A model generated the notes under the pieces. That model saw nothing but the letters and a program-made list of their open reading frames with translations, had not been told where the DNA came from and did no database searches. Of a stretch of 43,734 bases of DNA, positions 29,735 through 38,028 are shown piece by piece. A program made the position numbers and the translations under genes. Where the stretch lies: assembly GCA_024644085.1 (NCBI GenBank), contig JAHELS010000029.1:1-43734 (forward strand). The letters are read 5' to 3'. How positions within the stretch are numbered: the stretch's first letter is position 1; each line of letters starts with the position of its first letter. This DNA is from Rhodopirellula sp. GTDB taxonomy: Bacteria > Planctomycetota > Planctomycetia > Pirellulales > Pirellulaceae.

Positions 29735-31210
29735 CTAATTCGGCTTCTTGTTCGTCAATCTTGATCGGTACTCCCATCGCGTTTGCCACTGCTGAAAGTA
29801 CGGTTTGTATTCCTCGAGGTCGGTCCAGAAGCGAGGCGACGGTTCACTCGGATCCACTGTTCCGCTTGGGTAATCTTTTCCAGCAAAGCTTGCCTCCACC
29901 GATTCATTCCATCGTGCGAGTTGCCGCATCATTTTCTTGACCACCCCGGGGCGTTCGCCGGACAGATTGTTCGTTTCGGAGGGATCGCTTTCCAGGTCAT
30001 ATAACTCGTACGCTCCACCATCCAACTTGTTGGTTAACAGTTTCATGTTGTTGTCGATCCATGCGGCTCTTCCCGTGTGACGAAAACCAATTGGAACCTC
30101 GCGACGGCCGATTTCCTTTGCGAACAGCGGCAACAGACTGATGCCGTCGGCGGGACGCGAAGGATCGGCATGTTTGATTTCGGTGACATCAAGAATCGTC
30201 GGAACGATGTCCAGCACGCTGGCTGGAAACAAGGTCACTCGCGGTCGCACGATCCCCCTCGGCCAATGAACAATCCCAGGAACACGCAGCCCGCCTTCGT
30301 AGATGGTGCCCTTGTTTCCTCTCAGTCCGCCGACCGTCTCGGGCTCGATCTTTGGCAAGCCGCCATTGTCGCTGCAAAACCAAACCAACGTGTCTTCGCC
30401 GACCCCCAGATCACGTATCCCGTTTTGCAGCGTACCCACGCTTCGGTCCATCGCAACGAGCTCACCGTAGTGATGACGCGATTGTTCCTCGAGCGTAGCG
30501 AAGTCCGCCATGTCGTCCTCGGCCGCCTTGAACGGATTGTGAGGTGTCCCATACCAAATGACCGTGAAGCTTGGTTTGCCGGCGCGAACCTGTTTGGCGA
30601 TGAACTTCAGCGCCTCGTCCACAATGATTTCCGACGAGTCGCCCTGGAATTCTTCAAACTTACCGCGCCGGCTGAGAATTGGATCACGGTCGAAGAAATT
30701 GGTCACCGAAAGCCAGCGTTGGAATCCGAATTCACCCGGGTTGTGATCATCGCTGGCCAGGATCGGAACTCCGGGTCCGCGCAATGCGTTGAGATGCCAC
30801 TTGCCGAAATGGCCGGTGACGTATCCCGCATCGGCGAGCATCGTGGCGATTGAGATCTCCTGACGCCGCAACGCGTAACCGTGACTCTCGACCCCCGTGC
30901 GATCATTGGTTCGCCCGGTCAACACACTTGCACGTGTCGGCGAACAGACCGGCGCGCCTGCATAGAATCGGTCAAACCGCAATCCGTTTTCGGCCATCGC
31001 ATCGAGGTTCGGAGTCTTCAAGACGGGATGATTGTAATACCCCGTTTGCCCCCACCCCTGATCATCCGCCATCAATAAAACGATGTGAGGACGAGGTGAG
31101 GGTTCATCACCAATGGATGGCGACGTGGAAAATACTACGGCAATCGCCGCCGACAACGCGAAGGGAGCCGCCTTGCGCAGAGAATCCTGATAATCATGCA
31201 AATGGATCAT
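29735..31210 (-). CDS. Secreted type I sulfatase
   Basis: 491 aa. Signal peptide with an unusually long N-region (about 1-35, MIHLHDYQDSLRKAAPFALS). Metal-binding DD at 49-50 (LLMADDQGWG), active-site CSPTRASVLTGR from C89, GKWHL with K137 and H139, WYGTPHNPF with a catalytic His, and WFCSDNGG with the second metal Asp. All expected catalytic residues are present. It would desulfate carbohydrate substrates. It is divergent from the next sulfatase (start 31368), with 157 nt between the two ATGs that must hold both promoters. Confidence 0.94.
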   Translation of the reverse strand: MIHLHDYQDSLRKAAPFALSAAIAVVFSTSPSIGDEPSPRPHIVLLMADDQGWGQTGYYNHPVLKTPNLDAMAENGLRFDRFYAGAPVCSPTRASVLTGRTNDRTGVESHGYALRRQEISIATMLADAGYVTGHFGKWHLNALRGPGVPILASDDHNPGEFGFQRWLSVTNFFDRDPILSRRGKFEEFQGDSSEIIVDEALKFIAKQVRAGKPSFTVIWYGTPHNPFKAAEDDMADFATLEEQSRHHYGELVAMDRSVGTLQNGIRDLGVGEDTLVWFCSDNGGLPKIEPETVGGLRGNKGTIYEGGLRVPGIVHWPRGIVRPRVTLFPASVLDIVPTILDVTEIKHADPSRPADGISLLPLFAKEIGRREVPIGFRHTGRAAWIDNNMKLLTNKLDGGAYELYDLESDPSETNNLSGERPGVVKKMMRQLARWNESVEASFAGKDYPSGTVDPSEPSPRFWTDLEEYKPYFQQWQTRWEYRSRLTNKKPN

Positions 31211-31367
31211 GTTCAGACGATCTGTGAATCGATGCGGTAACTTGGATTCGTGTAATGTAACAGCCCGTTTGCCGGAAGGACCAACACCGTGGATGGACTA
31301 CCCAATGGTGATCATGATGATGCGAGCGGGAATGAACCGGAAAAGCACCCTATCGAGGACGAATGAG

Positions 31368-32723
31368 ATGAGATTGTTGGTTGCACAGTTTATCTTCGCG
31401 ATCTGTTGCCTGGGCCCCCTTTCTGCGGCTGACCCACCCAACATTGTGCTGATCTTTGTCGACGACATGGGGTATGGCGACCTTGGATGCTACGGCAACG
31501 AGCACATCAAGACACCGAACATCGATCGCATGGCGCGGCAAGGTCAGCGGTGGACAAGTTTCTATTCTTCCGGGTCAACCTGTGTTCCGAGCCGGCGTGG
31601 TTTGATGACCGGCCGACACCCCGCTCTGATGGGAAACGCGAAACTTGTAGGCTCGAGAGACCACATGATGGCGGCGATGCTAAAGCAACGGGGTTACGCA
31701 ACCGCAATCCTGGGCAAGTGGCACCTCGCCGGATACCCCGACGACTTTACAACCAGCCCGATGCATCCGCTGCGGTGCGGTTTCGATTATCACTTTGGCA
31801 CACCCGGCAGCAACGACGTTCCCGCGCCACGCGGCACCGTGCAAAACCGGCGACTCTTCGACACCTGTGACAAGTTCACTTTTCAGGTTCCGTTGATTCG
31901 CGGCCGTGAAATCATCGAGCATCCGGTCAACCAGGAACTGTTTACCGCACGCTACACCGGCGAGGCGGTCAAGTGGATCGAGGCCAACAAGAGCCAGCGT
32001 TTCTTTCTCTACCTCGCGCACAACATGCCACACGCCCCGGTGTTCGCCTCGCCACCATTCCAGGGCCGCAGCGCGGGCGGAAGGTACGGCGACGTGATCG
32101 AGGAAATCGATTGGTCAGTGGGACAGGTTCTCGACGCCATCGATCGATCGGGAATCGACGAGGATACATTGGTCGTCTTTACCAGCGACAACGGGCCGTG
32201 GTCAATGTTCGAAGTGCACGGCGGCACCGCGGGGCCGCTACGCGGCGAGAAAGGGACGTCTTGGGAAGGCGGCTTCCGCGTACCTGGGATTTTTCGATGG
32301 CCGGGGACGATTGCTCCGGGAACGGTCGATGGCATCGCGGCGAATCTCGACCTTTATGCAACCTTCGCCGCCTTGGCGGGAGCAGATCACGATGTCATCG
32401 CGCCGGCGAAAGACCAGGCCGGCTACATCTCAAAAGATCTCTCCGCTGTGCTGATGCACGCCGATGCGAGTCCCCGCCGCCAATGGCTGTACACGGGAGG
32501 CGCAACGGCGTTTCGCAGCGGAAACTACAAGATTCACCTGAGTACAAAAAACAGATCCTCCGATCCCGACACGCGTAAACGGGAAGCGGTGCAAGTGCAT
32601 GATCCACCGCTGCTGTTCGATCTCTCGGCAGATGTTGGTGAAAAGAATAACGTCGCCGCCGATCATCCCGAGATCGTGTCACGTCTGTTGCGCGAGATGA
32701 AGTCTTTTCGCGGTGAGAAATAA
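31368..32723 (+). CDS. Secreted type I sulfatase
   Basis: 451 aa from the ATG at 31368, which has GAGG 9 nt upstream and starts the signal peptide MRLLVAQFIFAICCLGPLSA; a longer in-frame start at 31209 lacks this. DD at 32-33 (VDDMGYGDLG), active-site CVPSRRGLMTGR from C72, GKWHLAG with K117 and H119, HNMPHAPVFASPPFQGRS and FTSDNGPW complete the family set. The overall pattern is closer to arylsulfatase A-like enzymes than to the other two sulfatases here. The stop codon lies inside a terminator-like hairpin. Confidence 0.94.
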   Translation: MRLLVAQFIFAICCLGPLSAADPPNIVLIFVDDMGYGDLGCYGNEHIKTPNIDRMARQGQRWTSFYSSGSTCVPSRRGLMTGRHPALMGNAKLVGSRDHMMAAMLKQRGYATAILGKWHLAGYPDDFTTSPMHPLRCGFDYHFGTPGSNDVPAPRGTVQNRRLFDTCDKFTFQVPLIRGREIIEHPVNQELFTARYTGEAVKWIEANKSQRFFLYLAHNMPHAPVFASPPFQGRSAGGRYGDVIEEIDWSVGQVLDAIDRSGIDEDTLVVFTSDNGPWSMFEVHGGTAGPLRGEKGTSWEGGFRVPGIFRWPGTIAPGTVDGIAANLDLYATFAALAGADHDVIAPAKDQAGYISKDLSAVLMHADASPRRQWLYTGGATAFRSGNYKIHLSTKNRSSDPDTRKREAVQVHDPPLLFDLSADVGEKNNVAADHPEIVSRLLREMKSFRGEK

Positions 32724-33057: not shown

Positions 33058-34734
33058 CTACCCCGTCAGCGAACTGAGGAACAGCTTTGGAAGTCGGGTC
33101 CAGCCGGGTCGATGGTATAGTTTCAACAAGTCCCAGACGACCCTTTCGGGATGTCGATGGTTCGAATACCAGATTGGCTTCGGCATCATCCTCAATGGCG
33201 AACGCAGCACCGTCTTTTCGGGGTGGTCCAGCAGAAACGTGTTGTGGACAAATCCGATGCCGCTCTGGGCGTCGGCGAGATCCGTACCCGGGTGACCACC
33301 CCATGGCGGCGACATCAAGGCGAACGACAGCGCGGGCCATTGGTTGATGCCGATCGTTCCAAACCTCAACTTTCGCAATGCGGCATCGAGCTGGGGTGCG
33401 CGGGTCGATTCGAATTCCTTTGAAACGGTCAACGCCGCGGCGAGGGTCCCCCATATCTGATCGTTCATGATATCGACGGCCTGGTCGAGGAACTCGACAT
33501 CCGACGATGCATCAATGACCAATTCGCCGCAAACGCACGTGAATGATTCCTCACGGAGCAAATGGGGCGACTGCTGAGGATCGATATCACGCAGCAGAGT
33601 CCAGGGCAATTTGTCGGGATCGTCGGGACGGCGTTGGCTGAATTTTTCAAATCGCTCGACTGCCCCGGGGTAATACGCGTGCCGCCTGGTGGTCGTAGAG
33701 AAGATGTGGTCGATCATCTCGAAGAACCGCTGCCGCTGTGGCCACTTTCTCGACGTCAAAATCAACTTGGTCGCTATGCAATTGAAAGAGGCGTTGTTGA
33801 TGATCGATGTCGCGATGGTTTCGGCCTGCGCGCGAAGTTGTCTTTCGCTGTACCTGCCGGGAACAATCGCCCAGGGAGTCACGTTTCCCAACTCGCTGGT
33901 AATCGATTTCTCGAGCACCGGACGTCCGTCTCGTCGACGCTGCTCGCTATCGGGGCCGGTACCCCAAACGATGGCGTCATGTGAGTGAATCGATCCGGTA
34001 ATGTGGACGCCGTTGGTCGCACCATGCGCAATCAAGAATTGACCGGTTTCGACCCCGCCGTAGGCAATGTGAAGCAGCTTTGCGTCAACAAGCGGCTTCA
34101 AGGCGGCCTCGAAGAACGACCCGAGATAGTCGTTGACCGGATTCATCTTCAACATTACCGCACTACCATCAATGAAGATTTTGGTAAGTGCATCGGTCAC
34201 CGGTATCGCGGAAACGTTGCCCGCCCCCAGCACCACGACCAACTCGGCGGCGCGATCCTGATCGAGCAAGCGCTCTGTCGATTCCAATGAGACGTCCTCA
34301 GGATCGACGCGCGGATCCAACCATGTTGCTGCGGTCATGGGACGAAACAGCAATGCATCGTAAAGTTGGCCGGTCGGAAAAACGGGGACGCGGCACTGGC
34401 CATGCTCGTGAACCACGGCAAAGGGTAAACGGGGCCGTCCTGTCTCGACGACATCCTTCAACGTGCGGGAAAACAGTTGCAGACAACGCACCGCTGCGAC
34501 TGGTCCCGTGGTTACCTCCTCAGCTCGCGCGGGGCTGTCCGCGGGAATTCTTTTCGCTGCACACGCCGCCTCGACCCACTGGTCGGCCACATCCACGACC
34601 CCGTCGATGCAACGGACGATCAACTCCCGGCGCTGGTCAAGTGTCATCCGACGCAGCGCCGCCGCACCGCCCGCGAGCGATTGCATTGCCTCATCGAGTT
34701 CGGGCATCGAAGAAGGTTCGTGGGCAATCGACAA
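33058..34734 (-). CDS. Aldehyde dehydrogenase family protein
   Basis: 558 aa if begun at TTG 34734, 1 nt after the upstream stop and preceded by GGAAGAG; the ATG at 34707 is the alternative. The NAD-dependent aldehyde dehydrogenase signatures are present: cofactor loop VVVLGAGNVSAIPVTDALTK, HITGS (about 245-248), ELGNVTPW with the general-base Glu (281), and SFNC with the nucleophile Cys (319). The sequence MLKMNPVNDYLG is typical of a subgroup of long, about 560-aa bacterial members that lack a firm substrate. It follows the cytochrome fusion gene directly, so its product may oxidise an aldehyde made by that exported module's pathway. Cytosolic; substrate unknown. Confidence 0.9.
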   Translation of the reverse strand: MSIAHEPSSMPELDEAMQSLAGGAAALRRMTLDQRRELIVRCIDGVVDVADQWVEAACAAKRIPADSPARAEEVTTGPVAAVRCLQLFSRTLKDVVETGRPRLPFAVVHEHGQCRVPVFPTGQLYDALLFRPMTAATWLDPRVDPEDVSLESTERLLDQDRAAELVVVLGAGNVSAIPVTDALTKIFIDGSAVMLKMNPVNDYLGSFFEAALKPLVDAKLLHIAYGGVETGQFLIAHGATNGVHITGSIHSHDAIVWGTGPDSEQRRRDGRPVLEKSITSELGNVTPWAIVPGRYSERQLRAQAETIATSIINNASFNCIATKLILTSRKWPQRQRFFEMIDHIFSTTTRRHAYYPGAVERFEKFSQRRPDDPDKLPWTLLRDIDPQQSPHLLREESFTCVCGELVIDASSDVEFLDQAVDIMNDQIWGTLAAALTVSKEFESTRAPQLDAALRKLRFGTIGINQWPALSFALMSPPWGGHPGTDLADAQSGIGFVHNTFLLDHPEKTVLRSPLRMMPKPIWYSNHRHPERVVWDLLKLYHRPGWTRLPKLFLSSLTG

Positions 34735-34735
34735 G

Positions 34736-37036
34736 TTACTCTTCCATTTGTTTGATCCACTGGCGGACCAGCGATGCGGCTTCAACGGGTACCAGCCGCC
34801 GGGAAACATTGGGCATGGCGATGCTCGGATCGGTTGCTTCGATTCGGTACATCAGAATCGATTCATCCGGCTTGCCCGGCACAATATCGAACGAGCGCCC
34901 GCCACTCCCGTGACCCGCGGCGACGGGCGTTTTCCAGATGCCCAGACGCTCAGCATCCATCTGGGTCAATCGCAGATCCAGACCCGAGGTGCGTGCCGTG
35001 CCGATCGGATTGTGACAGTGTGCGCAATTGACATGCAGCCACGTACGGGCCTGCGTCTTAACCTCTCCGGCACTTTCAACCGCGGATACTTTATGTTCCT
35101 CAAACCGCGGCCATGATTGAACGCTGTCGATGTGGGGCGCGCCGTCAAGAAACCCTTTGTCGGCCATCAACACCAATTGGTGACGCGCCCCGCGGCCGTC
35201 ATCGAATTCACGATTGAGATTTGCGGCGACTGGTCCGAGCGGAAAGAAGTCATCACCCTGCTGGTGGCAATTCAGACATTGGTTCGCATTAGGAATCTGG
35301 TACTTGTTCGTTCGACGCTTGCCGTCGAAGTGCGTCCAACTCACTTCGATCTCGCTTCCACCGAGCACGAGATCCGCGTCGCTCTGTTGATCGTTCCAAA
35401 GGTATGAAAATCCATACCATCCCTCATCTCGCCGCAGCTCGATGCGTGTCTCGAGCAATCGCCGGCCCTTGTCGGGATCGTCCATGTCATTTTGGTAAGC
35501 GAATGTCTTGGCGATGATCGTCCCGACGGGAAAGTCAAAAACACCCTCGTCCCGGTACTGGATACGCGTGCCGGCGGGCACTTTTACAAAACGGTACTTC
35601 GATGTGTAATCGCTGAATAACGCAGTGTTCAATTCATAGCGGAACACTCCCGCAGCCGGTTGCTGTGCCGCAAGATCGCCGACAAACAACTCGTATTGCG
35701 AAAGGTGCTTCTTTGCATCGCGATAGACTCGCACCGTTGAGGATGCGTTGGGCAAAACCACCTCGGGTACCGGGAGCGTCGTTTCGGCAAGTGGCGGGCG
35801 CGGAATCCGGTGCTCGGCCAGATCACGACGAATCTCGAATCTGCCCGCCAGGATATCCTGAGGATTGAGATGACCGTAATCAAAGTTGACGAAGGTCGCA
35901 GTGCCGTTGCGAACAATCGATGGAATCTGATTCGGCGCCGGCGCCGCGTCCACGAACTTCGTTGGATCGACAACGCCATCCCAAAGTATGTCCGGTAGTG
36001 TCCCGCCCAATACAGGTGCCAACAGAGTGCCGAATTCTCCCGCCGGGGCGTATCCGCTATTGGAAACTCGGTTGTCGTGAATCGAGATCGATTCGGGATA
36101 GGGATCGAAGACCTCGTCGTCTCGCATTTTTCGTTTCGCCCGATAGCTCAGCACGGCGATGCCACCGGTGCGATGATCGTGGACGTCGTTGTCAAAGACT
36201 TCGACCTCGTCGGTCGCCATGACCATCACGCCGGTTCCGGGCGGGACGGATGCAACAATGTTGCCCTTGGCTGCGAAATTCAGATGGTTGTTACCAGTGA
36301 CCGAATTTCGAAAGACGCGAACATGGTTTCCCGCGCTGATCTGCAAGCCGGGAAGATCAAACACGAGAATACCGGCGGTGTTGTTGGTGGTCTGATTGCC
36401 GAAAACGTCGGCGCCGACCGTGTTTTCAATTTCAATTCCGGCAACATTTCGTTCGGCGCGATTGTTTCGCACGATCACATTGCGGCATTGACCAACATAA
36501 ATTCCGGCGTCCGAAGCACCGATTGCCGTGCAAGTCTCCAGCAACACGTTTTCGCACTGGACCGGATAAATCCCGTACGCGCCGTTGGTGGGCTGTGGCG
36601 GTCCGGTCCACTCGACTCGCACGTCGCGAAATGTCACCCCACGAGCACCGAGTACCTTGATCCCATTTCCCGCGGTATCCTCAATCGCGAGTCCCTCGAC
36701 CAACAGGTTATCGCCGGTCGCCTCGATCCCCGCGCCGCCCGAGTCCTGCGCTTGAAACGAAAGCAACGTCTTTGCGCTCCCCGCGCCACGAATCGTCAAG
36801 TTACTCGTGGTGATGTCGAGTTGGCGATGCAGATGGTACGTGCCCGCCTCCAATTGAATCACGTCACCGGCGGCTGCATCGATCAGCCGCGATTGGAGTT
36901 CGTATTGAACGTCGGGAGTACAGGCAACGGTCGAGGTTCGAGGCTCCAGTTCAACGGATCGAACCGCACTGGCTGACATTGCAAAGAACAGCGTGAGGCA
37001 ATATCGGATCAAACAACTGGGTTGCCCACCGACCAT
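34736..37036 (-). CDS. Parallel beta-helix protein fused to SO2930/HNE_0200-type diheme cytochrome
   Basis: 766 aa, ATG 37036 with GGAG 8 nt upstream. Signal peptide about 8-26. Residues about 45-400 are a right-handed beta-helix, with stacked repeats such as NLTIRGAGSAKTL, NLLVEGLAIEDTAGNGIKVL and NVIVRNNRAERNVAGIEIEN; this matches TIGR03805. About 430-766 match TIGR03806 (SO2930/HNE_0200 family): FSDYTSKYRFVKVP, WNDQQSDADLV, two heme c sites CLNCH (587-591) and CAHCH (671-675), and a PGKPDESILMYRIEATDP end. These two families normally occur as neighbouring separate genes, so this is a fusion. It would act outside the cytoplasmic membrane, on a substrate unknown. The ALDH gene begins 1 nt after its stop. 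Confidence 0.87.
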   Translation of the reverse strand: MVGGQPSCLIRYCLTLFFAMSASAVRSVELEPRTSTVACTPDVQYELQSRLIDAAAGDVIQLEAGTYHLHRQLDITTSNLTIRGAGSAKTLLSFQAQDSGGAGIEATGDNLLVEGLAIEDTAGNGIKVLGARGVTFRDVRVEWTGPPQPTNGAYGIYPVQCENVLLETCTAIGASDAGIYVGQCRNVIVRNNRAERNVAGIEIENTVGADVFGNQTTNNTAGILVFDLPGLQISAGNHVRVFRNSVTGNNHLNFAAKGNIVASVPPGTGVMVMATDEVEVFDNDVHDHRTGGIAVLSYRAKRKMRDDEVFDPYPESISIHDNRVSNSGYAPAGEFGTLLAPVLGGTLPDILWDGVVDPTKFVDAAPAPNQIPSIVRNGTATFVNFDYGHLNPQDILAGRFEIRRDLAEHRIPRPPLAETTLPVPEVVLPNASSTVRVYRDAKKHLSQYELFVGDLAAQQPAAGVFRYELNTALFSDYTSKYRFVKVPAGTRIQYRDEGVFDFPVGTIIAKTFAYQNDMDDPDKGRRLLETRIELRRDEGWYGFSYLWNDQQSDADLVLGGSEIEVSWTHFDGKRRTNKYQIPNANQCLNCHQQGDDFFPLGPVAANLNREFDDGRGARHQLVLMADKGFLDGAPHIDSVQSWPRFEEHKVSAVESAGEVKTQARTWLHVNCAHCHNPIGTARTSGLDLRLTQMDAERLGIWKTPVAAGHGSGGRSFDIVPGKPDESILMYRIEATDPSIAMPNVSRRLVPVEAASLVRQWIKQMEE

Positions 37037-37240: not shown

Positions 37241-37831
37241 CTATCTCGCCGGCAGAGTGCCCCGTTGCGACACTTCCTGGCCGGACAAACGCCTTGCCCG
37301 AGCCCGGCTTGCCACGAGGGTGACGAAGCGTCCGCGCTGGACAACCTTGCCGTGCTGGTTGAGCAACTGGCGAATCCAGGTCACTCGCCCGGCTCGCCGA
37401 CCGTGTTGTTGGATCTCCTCGATCTCAGTCTGGACCTGCACGCGGTCACCGAAAAAGATGGGAGCCTCGAATTGCCAGTCGGCGATCCCAACGAACGCCA
37501 GCGTGGCTGCGTTGGGGCGCTCGCTGCTCAAACCCGCCAATACGCCAAGCCCTAGCAAACCGTGCGCGACCGGCTTGCCAAAGGGCGAAGCGGCGCCGTC
37601 CTGAGTGTGAAGCGGATCGTGATCGCCAGTCAACGCGGCAAAGTCAGCCACGTCCTCGGCTGTGATTTCACGCCAATCGGTCGACCAGCGGTCGCCGACC
37701 TCGATGTCTTCGAGGTAAAGGGTTTCGGTGTCAGCGGATGTTTCCACGGTTCGCTTGCCTGGATGGGATAGCGAAAGAATCGACTCCGAACTCCGTCGCC
37801 GGGTCATGTTGGCTACAATCATGGCGTCCAT
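37241..37831 (-). CDS. MaoC-like hot-dog hydratase
   Basis: 196 aa from ATG 37831, preceded by GGGGAAG; another ATG at 37807 is possible and a longer frame to 37906 lacks support. After about 50 variable residues, the (R)-specific enoyl-CoA hydratase motif is plain: ITAEDVADFAALTGDHDPLH (catalytic Asp and His), then FGKPVAHGLLGLG. The back half (FEAPIFFGDRVQVQTEIEEI) completes the hot-dog fold. Such proteins hydrate trans-2-enoyl-CoA in fatty-acid or polyester metabolism. The C-terminus is basic. Same strand as the beta-helix/cytochrome, ALDH and DUF6868 genes; a joint function is inference. Confidence 0.87.
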   Translation of the reverse strand: MDAMIVANMTRRRSSESILSLSHPGKRTVETSADTETLYLEDIEVGDRWSTDWREITAEDVADFAALTGDHDPLHTQDGAASPFGKPVAHGLLGLGVLAGLSSERPNAATLAFVGIADWQFEAPIFFGDRVQVQTEIEEIQQHGRRAGRVTWIRQLLNQHGKVVQRGRFVTLVASRARARRLSGQEVSQRGTLPAR

Positions 37832-38028
37832 CACGCTTCCCCAATAGAGCCCTTTCGGGTTCAATCGGCAAACAATCTCGAATTGTCCGGAGAATGCCGC
37901 GATCAAAAAACCTCCGGTAAATGGGTAATTTAGGTGGTTTTTGCAGCATTCGACGCATCACCTTGGGCACTTGCCCTTGGAAAGAGCGACTCGTCGATTC
38001 ATCGAACCTCTCTTTTTGGAGCATTTCC

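Follow-up and report, generated by a model that had tools for sequence, protein, structure and literature searches.

Fusion of a TIGR03805 beta-helix with an SO2930-type diheme cytochrome in Rhodopirellula sp. and the remote relation of its first heme domain to cytochrome P460

Introduction

The protein families TIGR03805 (beta-helix) and TIGR03806 (diheme cytochromes of the SO2930 type) are widespread, and we found no function for either. The TIGRFAMs notes for both families presumably already mention their fusion. Among the matches listed for open PMC papers, none dealt with the function of SO2930/TIGR03806 or with its relation to cytochrome P460. SO_2930 and SO_2931 stand in the outer membrane/extracellular column of a table in PMC4837345, and a passage of PMC5955497 names SO2931 a regulated cytochrome c lipoprotein; a passage of PMC6934571 had no bearing on this question. 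For cytochrome P460 of Nitrosomonas sp. AL212, the relevant passage of the review PMC11928373 gives Lys106 as the cross-link lysine; in a word search of this review, the terms diheme, fusion, Shewanella, beta-helix, planctomyc and domain were absent.

This report concerns a protein in which the two families form a single chain. It is encoded in a stretch of 43,734 nucleotides (assembly GCA_024644085.1, contig JAHELS010000029.1) from Rhodopirellula sp., referred to below as the window.

Gene and domain organization

The fusion gene occupies positions 34736–37036 on the minus strand of the window, begins with ATG and encodes 766 amino acids. Both curated NCBIfam models match above their cut-offs: TIGR03805 with 392.3 bits versus 141.5 (residues 47–355, the complete profile, positions 1–314 of 314), and TIGR03806 with 366.1 bits versus 313.3 (residues 443–764, profile positions 3–314 of 314, with two CXXCH motifs). 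The sequence-only reading of this DNA, which had proposed one 766-aa chain with CLNCH and CAHCH heme sites, is thus confirmed. The full-length structural model was confident overall (pLDDT 92.0, pTM 0.90).

All features of the protein lie on the minus strand. The N-terminal segment (36959–37036; residues 1–26) is a probable signal peptide; as judged by eye, it contains a single hydrophobic stretch at about residues 11–26, and residues 1–24 were modelled with pLDDT < 50. It is followed by a right-handed beta-helix (35801–36949; model residues 30–412), supported by the TIGR03805 match and VIA-align, and by two heme domains. The first of these (35141–35728; residues 437–632), assigned by structure and profile comparison, carries the attachment site of heme 1, CLNCH (35264–35278; residues 587–591). 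The second (34739–35119; residues 640–766) is cytochrome-c-like and carries CAHCH, the attachment site of heme 2 (35012–35026; residues 671–675).

Conservation in the cytochrome half was read from an alignment of 69 rows, comprising the window's protein, 10 of 18 fused frames (the others were repeats or near-copies), and 42 of 75 strict plus 16 of 23 looser single cytochromes. Both cysteines and the histidine of CLNCH are present in 69/69 rows. The second heme domain matches PSCyt1 with 24.7 versus 22 bits when the cytochrome half is searched alone, and with 19.9 bits in the whole protein. Met741 and Pro742 are invariant here (69/69), and Met741 is the likely sixth (axial) ligand of heme 2.

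Elsewhere in this genome, C407, C224 and C177 encode proteins that match the diheme half only, with 31–34% identity; a fourth match covers no more than residues 708–763 of the query. The three proteins correspond to L002–L004 of our locus set, and L003 and L004 have a third CXXCH.

Integrity of the junction

The linker between the modules (35738–35800, minus strand; residues 413–433) lies within a junction (residues about 356–442) that is alignable without a frameshift in 18 fused planctomycete proteins, the window's included; this alignment comprised 18 of 27 fused frames, among which L196 repeats L072. The same fusion occurs in the single-contig genomes G024, G048, G069 and G181 and on the chromosome of Lacipirellula limnantheis (L069). 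The earlier reading had named a sequencing error at the junction as what would refute the fusion. Such an error is very unlikely because independent genomes carry the same fusion, and with many of them, some single-contig, sharing the alignable linker as well, an assembly or sequencing artefact has a negligible probability and was rejected.

Distribution of fused and separate genes

In a set of 199 Planctomycetota genomes, TIGR03805 and TIGR03806 each exceeded their cut-offs in 10 genomes, nine of which had both. Within the window's class, 32 of 198 genomes had a TIGR03805 match at E ≤ 1e-40. By locus, these comprised 20 fusions, 11 adjacent two-gene arrangements and one locus cut by the contig end (G378); two weaker matches in G289 were left out of this classification. 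The window's genus is represented in this sample by two other genomes, both without a match, so the gene is patchy.

A broader picture came from 80 loci collected with the beta-helix profile. They are the top 80 among at least 580 loci ordered by their similarity to a fused query, so that fusions may be over-represented among them. In 64 of the 80, two separate genes were present on the same strand with the cytochrome gene downstream, which agrees with the earlier supposition that the two families are usually encoded as a pair and adds that the beta-helix gene comes first. Seven loci were fused, all from Planctomycetota, and at the remaining nine, some of them on short contigs, the SO2930 gene was not in range. 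At one locus (L096), another frame lies between the beta-helix gene and the downstream cytochrome gene.

Several individual arrangements deserve mention. At loci L088 and L101, two SO2930 genes come after the beta-helix gene; at L101 one copy has the P460-type lysine discussed below and the other has Gln, and at L088 both copies are without the lysine. The Bacteroidota loci L095, L099, L124 and L129 have a beta-helix gene with no SO2930 gene in range; within the limits of the contigs, no CXXCH frame was found there in the interval that extends 2.5 kb upstream and 3.5 kb downstream.

TIGR03805 was also detected in 29/299 genomes of a Pseudomonadota sample, 8/149 of an Acidobacteriota sample and 13/148 of a Bacteroidota sample, the phylum of each being taken from the loci used as centres. 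Among the Pseudomonadota, inspection covered only the six frames longer than 800 aa out of 29 (G536, with 623 aa, and shorter frames were left out); five were SO2930 fusions and one was a pair. Two of the five fusions scored above both cut-offs, and three were below that of TIGR03806. The search for further fusions, which the sequence-only reading had called for, was therefore answered by many Planctomycetota genomes and by these five proteins. The ideas that the fusion is unique to the window's genome or confined to Planctomycetota were accordingly discarded.

On a tree with 88 rows, a single change accounts for the planctomycete fusions, with weak support (77/34). A single clade of all fusions was not rejected (AU p 0.54; 17 rows versus 33, with long branches), and the fusions may have one origin or two.

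Relation of the first heme domain to cytochrome P460

Structure and profile comparisons relate the first heme domain remotely to cytochrome P460/c'-beta. A model of the cytochrome half built with the 69 rows reached a pLDDT of 95.5. Of 998 PDB chains aligned to it with VIA-align, the 13 best entries were all cytochrome P460 or c'-beta (Z 7.6–5.4 over 116–136 residues), followed by an unrelated entry with Z 4.3. A VIA-align Z under 8 is not proof, and the relation rests also on profile comparison and shuffles. In hhalign, the SO2930 profile matched a profile of 19 P460 domains with E 2e-7, and still with E 6.7e-5 (score 31.8) when the CXXCH part was cut from both sides; 100 column-shuffled profiles scored ≤14.5 and the reversed profile 13.6. 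Control comparisons with the second heme half (E 4.5e-4, over eleven columns around CXXCH) and the beta-helix (E 0.43) were weaker. The domain shares the feature that marks the superfamily, a beta-sheet heme fold that carries CXXCH at the C-terminal end.

Other searches were neutral to this relation or spoke against it. With the cytochrome half, Foldseek returned no PDB match at E ≤ 0.001; the best P460 ranked third (E 0.14), below two non-P460 entries. A profile search of PDB sequences with the 69-row alignment yielded 19 matches up to E 10 with no P460 among them; the best had E 0.0028, and they were short stretches mostly around heme motifs, one of them in a glutaredoxin-like protein. Searching PDB sequences with the 766-aa protein gave no match at E ≤ 1. 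The Pfam family Cytochrome_P460 (PF16694) scored 13.5 bits on the window's protein, versus a gathering score of 27; it matched 28 of the 69 relatives at E ≤ 1 (best 9.9e-5), and generic cytochrome families matched up to 62. Because the PF16694 score is below the cut-off, only a remote relation is claimed, and the domain is not filed as a member of that family.

The profile alignments place Lys510 (35507–35509, minus strand) at the position of Lys106 in P460 of Nitrosomonas sp. AL212 (NsP460): the segment FPVGTIIAK of the window's protein pairs with FPNGTVILK of a planctomycete P460, and its lysine aligns with Lys106. Lys510 is kept in 63/69 rows (49/53 strict and 14/16 looser); the other six carry I, Q, L, Q, N or E. 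The putative distal side, predicted to lie at the heme, contains Glu529-Thr530-Arg531 (35444–35452, minus strand), of which E and T are present in 69/69 rows and R in 67/69. Asp476 is likewise invariant (69/69). At the carboxylate position of P460, hhalign aligns Arg531; the invariant Glu529 lies two residues before it.

Apart from the SO2930 family, tandem P460 domains, two or three per frame, were observed in one planctomycete family, f44 (L150/L162, L165/L172, L166/L171 and L168/L173/L175).

The beta-helix and its alternative partners

According to VIA-align, the folds nearest to the beta-helix half are alginate epimerase/lyases (Z 33), RbmB (Z 30.4) and NosD (Z 28.8). The catalytic motif of AlgE-type mannuronan C5-epimerases is YG-x-D-P-H. 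The window's protein is alike in beta-helix architecture, but the Asp and His of this motif are replaced: it has YG-I-Y-P-V at residues 154–159, with Y157 in 90/90 and V159 in 89/90 rows of the beta-helix alignment, which includes near-copies. NosD also shares the architecture, but the protein is far below the cut-off of the NosD model TIGR04247 (39 versus 300 bits). With fold resemblance as the only link, both an epimerase and a NosD function were rejected.

The stretch at 36278–36577 (minus strand) contains the residues Y154, Y157, D176, Y180, Q183, E202, E204, N205, N219, F226, N244, N249 and N253, all invariant in 90/90 rows. The spacing of these residues over successive coils suggests, at the level of sequence, that they line a groove.

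The same residues are retained when the heme partner is a different one. In L015, L207 and L208, which come from a single planctomycete genome and from two members of the Acidobacteriota sample, a TIGR03805-type beta-helix lies C-terminal to a MauG/MbnH-like diheme enzyme, which matches CCP_MauG above cut-off (E 4.2e-54 to 1.2e-57) and TIGR04039 and TIGR03791 below theirs. The invariant stretch is kept in 3/3 of these proteins, with Y154, Y157, D176, Y180, Q183, E202, E204 and N205 identical. Phe94, Lys127 (89/90 elsewhere) and Trp143 differ in the three. Since the patch persists with an exchanged heme partner, it is more likely to serve a function of the beta-helix itself than to dock one cytochrome.

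The sequence-only reading had taken the fusion as strong evidence that the two families work together. Fusion plus gene adjacency do support joint action, within two limits. The fusion is not exceptional, being frequent in the class and present also in Pseudomonadota. Nor is the link between beta-helix and diheme module exclusive: GSDH domains can also precede the diheme module, and a MauG/MbnH-like enzyme can precede the beta-helix. With no SO2930 gene in range at nine of 80 loci, the beta-helix may also work alone or with different partners.

Neighbouring genes

Directly downstream of the fusion lies a divergent gene of the aldehyde dehydrogenase (ALDH) family (33058–34707, minus strand; PF00171, E 4.9e-6, 25.8 versus 23 bits). 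Its start codon was inferred, and no signal peptide was seen by eye. On visual inspection, its product seems to keep a SELGN and a Cys motif. Within the window's class, ALDH-like relatives lie beside 8 of 10 additional fusions and beside none of 10 two-gene loci; these counts refer to 20 regions of 7 to 13 kb, in which a more distant copy would be missed, and the eight include one already known, as L220 is the same locus as L072. Relatives also stand beside nine fused loci of the earlier set; none was found at the fused loci L067, L073, L213 and L216. The gene is located downstream of the fusion in the window, L066, L068 and L069, and upstream in L070, L072, L211 and L212, so the adjacency outlived changes of order. 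In L068 and L069, a Mpo1-like gene (2-hydroxy-palmitic acid dioxygenase family, identified in L068) separates the fusion from the ALDH-like gene; relatives of it occur at L069 and L218. These two kinds of neighbours hint at aldehyde or lipid metabolism and name no substrate.

Upstream of the fusion, a MaoC-like gene is present (37241–37906, minus strand; PF01575, E 9.3e-19); relatives of it were absent from the other loci examined and from a set of 32 loci. Among clusters of linked stop-to-stop frames, none besides the pair itself occurred in more than 11 of 81 loci, and no neighbourhood naming a pathway emerged. One cluster, identified by the Pfam assignment of one member as a PQQ dehydrogenase, was found within 10 kb in 11/81 loci. 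Elsewhere in the window, two genes that appear sulfatase-like by eye (29735–31210, minus strand, and 31209–32723, plus strand) are arranged head to head, with overlapping start codons.

Possible function

The sequence and the model describe an invariant-patch beta-helix, a heme domain of the P460/c'-beta-like type and a cytochrome-c-like domain with an invariant Met-Pro. On this basis, the fusion may be a secreted (periplasmic or surface) two-module oxidoreductase with a putative substrate held by the beta-helix. The protein would be exported, and the patch would form a groove for the substrate. This would probably be the end of a polysaccharide or a sugar acid, as with the carbohydrate-active relatives of the fold. 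The redox step would take place at heme 1, whose distal side would be open near Lys510, Glu529 and Arg531, and heme 2 (His/Met) would pass the electrons to the periplasmic respiratory chain. In one chain, the two modules would have a fixed ratio and geometry, which separate gene products must reach by docking. This reading is supported by the kept gene order, the P460 relation, Lys510, Met741, the patch, the GSDH modules and the ALDH-like neighbour. We hold it as a tentative possibility, because an electron relay and a self-modifying protein also stand as explanations.

As a relay, the heme module would only carry electrons, the beta-helix would be a docking scaffold or polymer anchor, and the true enzyme would be another protein, for example a quinoprotein dehydrogenase. 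The occurrence of the same kind of module behind GSDH domains in the same genome fits this, as does the PQQ-dehydrogenase cluster near some of the loci. However, no dehydrogenase gene is a constant neighbour, the invariance of the patch despite the change of heme partner goes beyond the needs of a docking face for one cytochrome, and simple electron transfer gives no evident reason to keep a lysine where P460 has one; we consider the relay doubtful.

MauG modifies its protein substrate, and MbnH acts on MbnP. By analogy, the heme module could oxidise Tyr154, Tyr157 and Tyr180 of its own beta-helix to a protein-derived cofactor; in favour of this are the three fusions of the same kind of beta-helix to a MauG/MbnH-like enzyme and the invariance of the three tyrosines (90/90 and 3/3). 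Yet the MauG-fused forms have Asn in place of Trp143 (90/90 otherwise), invariant tyrosines can simply bind a substrate, and none of the P460 enzymes known to us has protein residues as its target; such self-modification seems improbable. A similarly low probability is assigned to a P460-type hydroxylamine/NO enzyme or c'-beta-type NO/CO sink anchored by the beta-helix, for which the fold, the lysine and the activities of this fold described in parts of PMC11928373 would speak. Against it, the carboxylate that NH2OH oxidation requires has no clear position here, and among the neighbours named at the loci, none was seen to be a nitrification gene. The relatives also come from many genera that are, to our knowledge, outside the known nitrifiers.

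The new element is the P460/c'-beta relation of the first heme domain; neither this relation of SO2930 nor the exchange of partner with a MauG-like enzyme was found in the open PMC literature, among the matches listed. A more far-reaching view, which we regard as unlikely in its complete form, is that SO2930 proteins form a large, so far unrecognised part of the P460 superfamily that lies apart from nitrogen metabolism; they would be heme enzymes with a lysine cross-link, and what they act on would be held by the beta-helix. The beta-helix site would then stay constant while a MauG/MbnH-like enzyme replaces SO2930, so that two heme chemistries would serve one substrate or one protein-derived cofactor. 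A cross-link between Lys510 and heme would mean that P460 chemistry extends beyond hydroxylamine and is much more widespread than supposed. The fold relation, a lysine with a specific predicted modification and the partner patch turn a function-less annotation into defined experiments, and the partner swap offers an independent handle on the shared substrate.

Comparison with known systems

The first heme domain resembles cytochromes P460 and c'-beta (PF16694; 6hiu, 6hih, 7s5o and 7ead) in fold, in the CXXCH after the sheet, in the lysine position and in a GW motif. Differences are the 8–11% identity in structural alignments, the score below the Pfam cut-off, and the presence of a beta-helix and another heme domain in the same chain.

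The GSDH-SO2930-like proteins of the same genome share a homologous diheme module, but their N-terminal domain is a GSDH sugar-dehydrogenase domain, whereas that of the window's protein is a beta-helix. The layout of hydrazine synthase alpha (propeller, heme, heme), as outlined in a part of PMC12758564, resembles GSDH-SO2930; in hhalign, its family PF18582 gave E 1.8e-4, no better than the heme-motif control (8.9e-5). The MauG/MbnH-like fusions have in common with the window's fusion the beta-helix family, above cut-off, and the invariant patch, but their diheme enzyme is unrelated and N-terminal.

The closest counterparts are the two-gene pairs of the HNE_0200/SO2930 type and the other fusions. 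The pairs likewise contain both domains complete, beta-helix first and cytochrome second, encoded in two genes where the window has one chain. Other planctomycete fusions (for example L008, L010–L012, L066–L070, L072, L073 and L209) show the same domain order and an alignable linker. The Pseudomonadota fusions (L201, L202, L204, L205 and L206) have the same order in longer frames of 885–1026 aa. The fusion of Rhodopirellula sp. thus belongs to a known type, which is common in its class and occurs also in Pseudomonadota.
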